Of a stretch of 8,914 bases of DNA, positions 2,730 through 6,740 are shown piece after piece. Position 1 is the stretch's first letter. The number at the start of each line of letters is the position of its first letter. The notes under the pieces were generated by a model, which saw only the letters and a program-made list of their open reading frames with translations, searched no databases and was not told the origin of the DNA. Source of the stretch: Candidatus Micrarchaeum sp. (lineage in GTDB: Archaea; SpSt-1190; DYHY01); assembly GCA_020723935.1 (NCBI GenBank), contig DYHY01000030.1, forward strand, positions 1 to 8,914, given 5' to 3'. Made by a program: the position numbers and the translations under genes.

Positions 2730-3335
2730 ATGCCGGCAAAAGGCGCATATCCGAAAGCAGCTTACGGTTCCGACGCAGAAGAAGGGAAGGGCGAGAGGTT
2801 CCCGCCAAGGAAGATACTTGTCAAGGAGTGCTCGGCCAAGCACGCGACGCCCAACGGCGGGGCGATATTCGTCGAGAGGGCGCTCATGTTCTTGTTTGCG
2901 GCCGTCTTCCTCTGCGCAATAGCCGGTGCGGCCGTCGGGGCCGTGAGCTTCGCCGCGTTCTTGCTTGGCGCCGGCATCGGGGAAATCGCGGCGCCGGGGA
3001 TCGCGGCCTTCCTGCTCCTCGCGGTGCCGGGCCTCGCCTTCGTCGCGATTGAGGGCATCTACTATGTCAGGACCTTCCGCTTCAGCCTGCAAGACGAGCT
3101 CGTCTTCTCGAGGAGCGGCGTTATCTCCCCCGGGTACACCATGATCCCCTACGAGAACGTCCAGGACGTCCAGCTTTCCGAGGGCCTGCTCGAGAAGCTC
3201 ACCAGGACTGCGAGCGTGACGATCACGACGCCCGCGAGCACCCTGAAGGTGCCCTACCTCGAGCGAGAGCTTGCCAAGGGCCTGCGCCTCGAACTCCTCG
3301 CGCGCGCCGAGAAGCACAGGGGGCTTGCGGAATGA
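2730..3335 (+). CDS. Membrane-anchored bPH2 (DUF304) protein, YdbS-like
   Basis: A 201-residue protein with a charged cytoplasmic-looking N-terminus (1-45), two membrane helices (about 52-80 and 87-109), then one bacterial PH-like bPH2/DUF304 domain (about 113-193). The domain shows the family pattern FSLQDELVFSRSGVISPGYT followed by MIPYENVQDVQL and a terminal helix. The domain is a PH-fold module found beside TM pairs; its ligand is generally unknown. In Bacillus the single-unit YdbS is encoded next to multi-unit YdbT, a sigma-W-controlled pair linked to resistance to membrane-active peptides, and the same arrangement is seen here. The next gene overlaps by four bases (ATGA), so the two are translated together and probably form one membrane complex. 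The start is fixed by the TATA box 27 bases upstream. Function beyond an envelope role is inference. Confidence 0.85.
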   Translation: MPAKGAYPKAAYGSDAEEGKGERFPPRKILVKECSAKHATPNGGAIFVERALMFLFAAVFLCAIAGAAVGAVSFAAFLLGAGIGEIAAPGIAAFLLLAVPGLAFVAIEGIYYVRTFRFSLQDELVFSRSGVISPGYTMIPYENVQDVQLSEGLLEKLTRTASVTITTPASTLKVPYLERELAKGLRLELLARAEKHRGLAE

Positions 3336-5455
3336 GCTGGCCATCTGCCGCTTCTGCCGCGGCCGCCGCGAAGCGTCCTTCCGAGGCGCCCCTCCGGGAG
3401 AACTATCCCCTGGAGGGCAGGAAAGTCGTCAAGAAGATCCTCGAGCGGGGCGCGATAGCCCTCTTCCTCGCCCCGTTCGTCGGGATGGCGGGCATAATTT
3501 TCCTGGGCATATTCGGGCTCCTACTGATCTTCGTCGTCTTTGGGATAGTCATATGGTGGGCTTCCGAATATTGCAGGACCTACTTCTACGACATAGAGGG
3601 GAGCGGCCTCGTCGTGAAGAAGGGCGTGATCTTCCCCAACTCCGCGACGATCCCCCTGGACAAGATATCGGACGTCTACGCTGATCAGGACATCGTCGAC
3701 AGGGTGATGGGCCTCTACGACCTGCACTTCTCATCGGCATCCGAGACCTCCGGCGCGCTCTCCCACATCGACGGCGTGTCGAAGGCGAACATGGAGGCGC
3801 TCAAGGCGATCCTCCTCTCCGCGATCTCCGGGAAGAAGGCCTCTCCCGGCGCTAGGTCCCAGGCCTTCTCCGCCGCTGGGCCGCAGGCTTACGGAATATC
3901 GCGGGGCAGGGCGTCCGCTCCCACGGGCGAGGCCTTCAGGCCGGGCGAGCACGCGTACGTGCGCGAGCTCGCGGGCAAGGCCCTGAGCGCCCTCTTCATG
4001 ATGGCTTTCGCGCTCTCCGGGATACTCGCGGTCCTTCCTCTCCTGATAACCATCGCGGTCGTGGTCGCCGTCCTCGGCGCCGTGGCGTTCTACGTCAAGA
4101 AGGAGGTGGAGGCATGCTCATACGAACTCACCGCGGAGGGCCTGAGGATAAGGAAGGGCTGGCTCACGCCCTCGGAATCCCTGATATTCTATGCGAACAT
4201 GCAGGACATCGACACCGCCCAGGGGATCCTGGACAGGCTCTTCGGCCTGGAAGAGATGACCGTGAAATCCATGTCCGTGCAATCCGCGGTCTCCGCCAAG
4301 GCCCGGCTCCTTGACGCGGCGGACGCCGAGCGCCTCAAGAAGCTCCTCGAGGGCAGGCTCTACGGCGCGTCCAGGGCGGCCAGGGCGGCGGGCCCGGCGC
4401 CCGTTTCGGCGAGGCGGCCTCTCGAAGGCAGGGAGAAGCCCTACGTCAACCACTTCTTCCTCGGCGCTTGCGCGGGATGCGTCGGGGCTGCGGCGTTCCT
4501 CGGGCCCCTTGCGATCATGGCCTTCGCGGTGGGGCTCCACTTCGGGCCCGCGGCGATGGCGGCGGGGATAATTCTCCTGCTGCTCCTCGCGGTGGCGGTC
4601 CTCGCATTCACAGGCGCGGCGATATCGAACATGGCATTCTCTTATTCCCTCGAGGGGGACGGGGTGTCGATAGGATACGACTTCATCGCCAAGAGCGCTA
4701 AGAAGATACGCTACGAGAAGGTCCAGGACGTGAAGGTGTCCTGCTCGCTCTTCGGGAGCATCTTCGGCATCGCGGACGTGACGATTGAGACGGGCTCAAG
4801 GGAGGTCACGACGGGCGAGCACGGCGAGCAGTATTCCGGGAGCTACGCGACGCCCTTCGAGACGATCCCCTCCTTGAAGCTTGCCGACGCCGCGGCCCTC
4901 GCGATGGAGATGGCTGAGGCGAGCGGGATCTCCGTGCCCTCCTCCAAGAGACCGCTGAAGACGACGCTCCCCCTGTCCAAGAAGAAGCCTCTCAAGAAGG
5001 CCCTCGCGTTCATCGCCTTCCCGTGGCCGCAGCTGGAAATCCTCGCGATACTTGGCGCGATGATCGTCCCCTCCTGGGGGCGGACCGTCTCGCTCGCGAT
5101 CGCCGCGGGGATCCCTGCGCTCTGCGCGGCGGCGTTTTGCCTGAAGCTGTGGTACGAGAACGAGTACTTGAGGCGCTACGAATACTACGAGGACTCCAAG
5201 AGCCTCACCGTGCACAAGGGCGTCTTCGGCTGGGGCGAGATAGTCGTGCCGTTCAGGAACGTCCAGTCGGTCTACGTGGACCAGGACCTCTTCGACGTAG
5301 CATTCGGCCTCTGGGACGTCTGGATGACGACCGTCACCGGCGAGTCCGGGAACCTCTCGCACATCGACGGCCTGGAACGCGAGGGGGCCGAGGAGCTCGC
5401 GCGCCTGCTCGCGTCGCGCGTGGAGGCGTCCAGGAAGCCCCGGAGGCGGCGCTGA
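3332..5455 (+). CDS. Four-unit TM + bPH2 (DUF304) membrane protein, YdbT-like
   Basis: A 707-residue protein built of four repeats of a TM pair plus a bPH2 domain. TM regions are near residues 39-76, 215-254, 374-430 and 558-606; PH domains are near 80-165, 258-341, 434-530 and 611-695. Each PH opens with Y-x-(L/I)-x5-L/V and carries a variant of IP(L/Y)(E/D)-K/N-(V/I)-Q-D-V: IPLDKISDV (107-115), FYANMQDID (286-294), IRYEKVQDVKV (459-469) and VPFRNVQSVYV (639-649). Units 1 and 4 are the closest pair, both having ADQD/VDQD and LSHIDG (143-148, 675-680). Unit 3 lacks the K-K/R-K-G turn and has an insertion about 488-508. Linkers 166-205 and 345-368 are Ala/Pro/Arg-rich and probably flexible. 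It overlaps the upstream gene by ATGA and ends in TGA. The expected role is with the upstream protein at the cell membrane, perhaps in envelope protection; the ligand is unknown. Confidence 0.88.
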   Translation: MSWPSAASAAAAAKRPSEAPLRENYPLEGRKVVKKILERGAIALFLAPFVGMAGIIFLGIFGLLLIFVVFGIVIWWASEYCRTYFYDIEGSGLVVKKGVIFPNSATIPLDKISDVYADQDIVDRVMGLYDLHFSSASETSGALSHIDGVSKANMEALKAILLSAISGKKASPGARSQAFSAAGPQAYGISRGRASAPTGEAFRPGEHAYVRELAGKALSALFMMAFALSGILAVLPLLITIAVVVAVLGAVAFYVKKEVEACSYELTAEGLRIRKGWLTPSESLIFYANMQDIDTAQGILDRLFGLEEMTVKSMSVQSAVSAKARLLDAADAERLKKLLEGRLYGASRAARAAGPAPVSARRPLEGREKPYVNHFFLGACAGCVGAAAFLGPLAIMAFAVGLHFGPAAMAAGIILLLLLAVAVLAFTGAAISNMAFSYSLEGDGVSIGYDFIAKSAKKIRYEKVQDVKVSCSLFGSIFGIADVTIETGSREVTTGEHGEQYSGSYATPFETIPSLKLADAAALAMEMAEASGISVPSSKRPLKTTLPLSKKKPLKKALAFIAFPWPQLEILAILGAMIVPSWGRTVSLAIAAGIPALCAAAFCLKLWYENEYLRRYEYYEDSKSLTVHKGVFGWGEIVVPFRNVQSVYVDQDLFDVAFGLWDVWMTTVTGESGNLSHIDGLEREGAEELARLLASRVEASRKPRRRR

Positions 5456-5515: not shown

Positions 5516-5988
5516 GTGGTTGCGAAAAAGGTCAGCAGGGCCGCGGGTCTCCTGGTTCCGGTCCTCTTCGTGATACTCTTCTTCTCCGTGATAAGGGCAT
5601 CCCTCTTCTCCGAGGCCGTCCCCCGGGACAAGATAATCTGGTTCGAACTCACAGCCCTCCCCCTCACCACCATCCTCTCGGAGCTCCTCGTCATCTACAT
5701 GAGGCAGCCGGCGGTCGTCGGGCTCCTGATCCTCGGGATGCTCGTCTCGCCCAAGGGCCTCGTCCTCGTCTGGCCCTACGCCTCGGCCGTGCTGAACGCC
5801 CTCTACTCGGCCCTCGCGGGCGTCGCGCCCTTCGCGGCGGGCAGCCCACCGCATTTCATAAGGTACGACGACACCGTGCGCCTCTTCGCGCAGCTTGGCG
5901 CCATATTCCTGCTCTTCGAGATAGGCCCGCATAGCGAGGTGAGAAGATCTTCAACTTCAGGAACTTCATCGTCGGCGCCCTCGGCGTA
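5516..5988 (+). pseudogene. Truncated, frameshifted cation:proton antiporter (CPA2 / Kef-type), 5' part
   Basis: The N-terminal third of a monovalent cation:proton antiporter-2 protein, which in full would be an integral membrane exchanger of roughly 400 or more residues. Family signatures are [20 protein letters not shown] (residues 54-73), GMLVSPKGL (74-82), then a loop and [20 protein letters not shown] (119-138). At about 5940 one base is missing: the original frame goes off into unrelated residues, while the next frame continues the family sequence [16 protein letters not shown] (5941-5988). Homology then stops and the DNA becomes uvrA in reverse. The rest of the transporter, including the ion-binding helices, is absent. 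The start is GTG 5516, 60 bases after the PH operon. An open frame extends further upstream without an ATG, and no good TATA box was found, so read-through from the PH operon is possible. Confidence 0.8.
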
Positions 5989-6123
5989 TATCGTGTCGAA
6001 GGCGAGGGTCGACTTGCCCGAGCCCGAGAGGCCCGTGAAGACGATGAGCTTGTCGCGGGGGAGCTCGAGGGAGACGTTCCTCAGGTTGTGCTCCCTCGCG
6101 CCCTTGATTATTATGGACTTCAT
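5977..6123 (-). pseudogene. uvrA: Truncated uvrA, 5' part only
   Basis: The first 49 codons of UvrA, the ATPase that recognises damaged DNA in nucleotide excision repair. The match is textbook: [20 protein letters not shown], then [10 protein letters not shown], Walker [10 protein letters not shown] (residues 31-39) and [10 protein letters not shown] (40-49). In full-length proteins QRRYVESLS follows the last motif; here the frame changes to [11 protein letters not shown], which is antisense of antiporter sequence. More than 90 percent of the gene (usually over 900 codons) is missing. The promoter and start are intact, with a TATA box 28 bases upstream of ATG 6123. The 3' part may lie elsewhere in the genome if this is an inversion, or the join may be an assembly error. 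The product as read cannot be a working UvrA. Confidence 0.88.
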
Positions 6124-6212: not shown

Positions 6213-6740
6213 ATGGCGGCGAAAACGGAGGGGGCCGGCGGAAGCTGGTTCGTCGGGCTTTTCAGGAAGTTCGATGGGTGGTTCATCTCGTTCATGAGCG
6301 GAAACAGCATCAACTTCCTCAGGATCGCCCTCGCCGTGATCTACATCTGGTTCGGAGCCCTCAAGATTGTTGGCTTCAACCCAGCAGCCGGTCTCGTCGC
6401 GCAGACCGTCTTCTGGCTCCCTCCCGAATGGGCGGTGGTCTTCATAGGCGCGTAGGAGGTCCTCATCGGCGTCGGCCTGCTGATACCTGACAAGTTGGTC
6501 CTGCGCGGGACGCTCTTCCTCCTCTGGCTGCAGATGGCAGGGACCTTCCAGGTCCTCGTCTTCTTCCCGATGCAGGCGTTCCAGGGCGGGAACTTCCTCT
6601 TCCCGACGCTCGAGGGCCAGTATGTGATAAAGAACCTGGCGATAATAGCCGGCGCCCTCGTCATAGGGAGCACCGTCACCCCCTACGGCGGTGGGGCCAG
6701 GAAGGCAGCGGAGAAGGGGAAGAAAAAGGGCGCGGCCTGA
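6213..6740 (+). pseudogene. DoxX/DUF417-like membrane protein interrupted by in-frame TAG
   Basis: A 175-codon gene for a four-helix membrane protein of the DoxX/DUF417 kind, broken by TAG at codon 81 (6453-6455). Before the stop are an amphipathic start (SWFVGLFRKFDGWFISFM, 11-28), NFLRIALAVIYIWFGALKIV (34-53) and the TVFWLPPEW segment (65-73). The same frame continues after it without any shift: EVLIGVGLL, LFLLWLQMAGTFQVLVFFP (101-119), and TLEGQYVIKNLAIIAGALVI (132-151), with a lysine-rich tail. The stop sits within TM2, where relatives as I recall them have Trp before E-V-L-I-G, so one TGG-to-TAG change would explain it. Both halves look otherwise intact, suggesting a very recent mutation, a sequencing error or stop-codon suppression. 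ATG 6213 follows a TATA-like box by about 26 bases. The physiological role of this family is poorly defined. Confidence 0.8.

Follow-up and report, generated by a model that had tools for sequence, protein, structure and literature searches.

Two genes that face each other on a short archaeal contig, one encoding an antiporter and the other UvrA, break off at the same few bases, which raises the question of whether the organism lost the sequence between them or whether the contig was joined incorrectly. The window, meaning the whole stretch of DNA analysed, is the entire contig C10 (8,914 bp), from an archaeal bin of 47 contigs and 1.14 Mb (completeness 91%, contamination 1.2%); the nearest relatives compared comprised a single same-family genome and eight genomes from its class. 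We conclude that the join is of a deletion type rather than an inversion, and we give roughly even odds to a recent deletion in the organism and a skip by the assembler. The following features of the window bear on the question or lie close to the join.

1 to 24, no strand assigned: left contig end; read as its reverse complement, it overlaps the beginning of contig C36 (Nudix, uvrB) by 24 bp, one of them mismatched.
2730 to 5455, plus strand: two overlapping bPH_2 (bacterial PH domain) genes, one of 201 residues and one of 707, the longer protein showing domain matches over four stretches.
5516 to 5988, plus strand: 5' part of a Na+/H+-exchanger-type (PF00999) antiporter gene, covering only positions 5-60 of the 375-position PF00999 model and sharing 46% identity with an intact homologue from genome G021; the 3' two thirds are missing, and a 1-nt frameshift lies near 5942.
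5977 to 5988, no strand assigned: shared sequence GCCCTCGGCGTA at the join, read as antiporter A-L-G-V on the plus strand and UvrA Y-A-E-G on the minus strand; a single copy is present in the 831 kb of genome searched.
5977 to 6123, minus strand: first 49 codons of uvrA, including Walker A, recognised by model and homologue matches; the remaining ~890 codons are missing.
6213 to 6740, plus strand: DoxX/DUF417-like membrane protein gene beside the uvrA 5' end, with an in-frame TAG at 6453-6455; both halves give weak Pfam matches, and the coding signal runs in frame past the TAG.

The composition of the window correlates with that of the bin (r 0.866), as do the parts to the left (0.791) and right (0.737) of the join, each value being within the range for pieces of equal length. 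A mis-binned contig was rejected and a mixture of two organisms is not indicated, as the composition on both sides of the join falls within the range of the bin.

The antiporter fragment can be followed almost to the last base of its reading frame. Its alignment with the G021 homologue runs to H-S-E-V and continues beyond that point in a shifted frame only, where it matches K-I-F-N-G-K-N-F-L-V-A-L-I-G-V of the homologue as far as G-V; similarity ends after 5988. The responsible 1-nt frame change, missed in the first-pass annotation, lies 35-45 bp before the join and, judged from this alignment, would be either a second lesion close to the join or a base error. A search of the 91%-complete bin with the PF00999 model returned the fragment and one separate, complete PF00999 gene on contig C45, and the 3' part of the antiporter gene was absent.

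The uvrA side is equally sharp. UvrA residues 1-49 match at 5977-6123 on the minus strand (E 7.9e-28, search within the organism's own genome), and the same query found no second uvrA 5' end elsewhere in that genome. The uvrA model TIGR00630 matches the fragment over positions 2-48 only; its remaining matches are to other ATPases, and the 3' part of uvrA is absent from the 91%-complete bin. In 85 of 86 UvrA relatives with the same motif, YAEG is followed by Q, whereas the window has YAEG-A, indicating that UvrA homology stops at 5977. The 49-codon remnant shows no visible decay. A functional stand-alone UvrA of 49 residues was considered and rejected, because the other matches of the genome search, 13 of 13, lie in open frames of 939-1032 residues.

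These two limits of homology confirm the view of the first-pass annotation that both genes keep their 5' ends and lose their 3' ends at one spot. The genes are convergent, both end within 5977-5988, and the join itself contains no N. Since both codings fit this segment and similarity ends at its limits, the shared stretch measures at most 12 bp, an upper bound on the microhomology; the earlier placement of the join in about 9-12 bp of shared sequence is borne out, as both proteins can be read across it. In this genome, 45% of paired stretches of 0.95 kb and 2.7 kb share a 12-bp repeat by chance, and a deletion would therefore need no special sequence. A literature search on an antiporter-uvrA locus found nothing.

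That the join is the scar of one deletion between convergent genes is, in our judgement, an even call. Under this reading, the ancestral order would have been an antiporter gene on the plus strand facing uvrC and uvrA on the minus strand. A block comprising the 3' part of the antiporter gene, uvrC and the 3' part of uvrA, at least ~5 kb as derived from homologue sizes, would have dropped out between two direct copies of a short repeat (up to 12 bp), of which the one at 5977-5988 remains. The route may have been slippage or microhomology end joining, and the event would be recent and would form one step in this archaeal lineage's loss of UvrABC nucleotide excision repair, in which uvrB had already acquired its frameshift. 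Because the genes are convergent, a plain deletion yields the observed product and needs no partner junction. Both genes break off at one position, and the missing block does not turn up elsewhere in the 91%-complete bin; the 12 bp fit both genes at the protein level, and no parent sequence was found in the relatives searched.

The placement of uvrC draws on other archaea. In three archaeal loci (G003, G005 and one Thaumarchaeota contig), the start of uvrC coincides with the uvrA stop or follows it closely, and if the same order held here, uvrC would have lain inside the missing block. No uvrC match was obtained in the 91%-complete bin, and the loss of one block would explain the absence of the uvrA 3' part, uvrC and the antiporter 3' part together. 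We infer, rather than observe, the position of uvrC inside the block, the occurrence of the event in the organism's DNA and the mechanism.

The third component is also damaged. The only uvrB of the bin, at the start of C36 (L040:613-2540), is split by a 1-nt frameshift near C36:1428, as supported by 10 homologue alignments. It lies within a run of GGGGCCC, where a base error may account for it. Over 229 kb, a homologue-based scan yielded nine frameshift candidates, two of them at N gaps and several doubtful, a low rate, and an intrinsic scan of the genome was noisy; with the background thus uncertain, the uvrB frameshift supports decay only mildly. The 24-bp sequence shared by C10 and C36 is found nowhere else in the genome, and from this overlap the two contigs are probably adjacent, which would place the uvrA 5' end ~6.5 kb upstream of uvrB on the same strand.

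Searches for an intact version of the locus covered several collections. Among 60 relatives, the antiporter had two distant homologues only, neither on a uvrA-bearing contig, and a genome-collection scan with the antiporter found no relative of the locus. The corresponding scan with the UvrA fragment retrieved mostly bacterial UvrAs and no near relative, with the antiporter beside uvrA at none of those loci. The long PH-domain protein, used as a locus marker, had no relative in 20 related genomes. The single-deletion reading is favoured by the convergence of the genes, the joint absence of both 3' parts and uvrC, the split uvrB, relatives that lack uvrABC and a composition that fits the bin on either side of the join, while against it stand an antiporter-uvrC-uvrA order observed in no genome searched, the undecayed uvrA remnant and the short, gap-scaffolded contig. 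The likeness to known deletions between short direct repeats, by slipped mispairing or microhomology end joining, lies in two sequences joined at one repeat copy with the intervening material absent; the difference is that both the length of the repeat (at most 12 bp) and the extent of the block are here inferred.

The strongest competitor, which we regard as a substantial possibility falling somewhat short of even, is an assembly join, in which strain variation or poor coverage kept the block between the convergent genes out of the assembly and a short overlap allowed the two contig ends to be joined, the organism's genes being intact. Some short-read scaffolders fuse contig ends via short overlaps. 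In ~830 kb of the bin (overlapping stretches counted), gaps of exactly 10 N occur 18 times and gaps of 100 N six times, and from these constant sizes we take the bin to have been built by pair-based scaffolding. A conserved translation factor gene (eIF2-gamma-like, on C17) is broken by one of the 10-N gaps (L063:1602-1611). The ends of C8, C9 and C20 (L048 end, L049 start and L038 start) have ~40 bp in common, reflecting either a repeat or an assembly-graph break. An assembly join would also suit the mismatch in the overlap of the C10 left end with C36, which suggests a strain mixture, as well as the frameshift close to the join, the low rate of other frameshift candidates in the genome, the fresh appearance of the remnants and the shortness of the contig (8.9 kb), which breaks at both ends. 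Against it count the lack of any N at the join, the damage to uvrB on another contig and the rarity of suitable overlaps, since random pairs of 100-bp ends have at least 12 bp in common in only 0.25% of cases and at least 10 bp in 2.4%. The absence of uvrC does not discriminate, because the same gap would take uvrC as well.

The first-pass annotation was right to see a join at short shared sequence and a choice between a real event and misassembly, but its interpretation as an inversion of formerly co-oriented genes is unsupported, since convergent genes that lose their 3' ends together require a deletion only. An inversion of a co-oriented antiporter gene and uvrA through the 12-bp sequence would give the same local product, and its partner junction could sit in the unassembled 9% of the genome. 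We nevertheless consider it improbable: the expected junction of the antiporter 3' part with the uvrA 3' part does not occur in the 91%-complete bin, neither uvrA from codon ~50 onwards nor the C-terminal part of the antiporter was recovered there, uvrC is absent as well, and an inversion requires in addition that the partner was lost or left unassembled, whereas a single event suffices for a deletion.

An amplification chimera, arising when a displaced 3' end primes a nearby strand at a short complementary stretch in amplified (single-cell or low-input) DNA, is very improbable, given that this genome bears no sign of amplification and that a chimera enters an assembly only if it is more abundant than the true sequence. 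A head-on join at a few shared bases, on a small contig from a draft bin, does resemble the reported pattern of MDA chimeras, more than 85% of which are inverted with intervening deletions and more than 70% of whose junctions use 2-21 nt of complementarity (PMC1855051).

Returning to the single deletion, its wider setting is the state of UvrABC in this lineage. The bin holds 49 codons of uvrA, no uvrC and a frameshifted uvrB, in a genome that is incomplete and where a base error is possible. All three genes, uvrA, uvrB and uvrC, are missing from G001, the genome of the same family, and from most members of the class, and their distribution among relatives is patchy. On these sequence comparisons, the uvr damage fits a recent loss of nucleotide excision repair. 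It resembles the loss of uvrABC in reduced archaeal genomes, with related genomes that lack all three genes, and differs in that the remnants, if real, are still clearly recognisable. The full scenario, in which a small-genome archaeon is losing nucleotide excision repair and one microhomology deletion has just taken uvrC, most of uvrA and the 3' part of the antiporter gene, with uvrB newly frameshifted, is put forward tentatively, as an account that could well be wrong.

The join is an ordinary kind of scar and no new system, and neither outcome alters general understanding; broader interest attaches only to the possibility that nucleotide excision repair was lost recently. If the join is an artefact, it cautions against scoring uvrABC genes as absent or truncated in this bin. 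If it is real, the locus would offer a snapshot of a reduced archaeal genome in the course of losing a whole repair pathway, and the organism would be predicted to be sensitive to UV.
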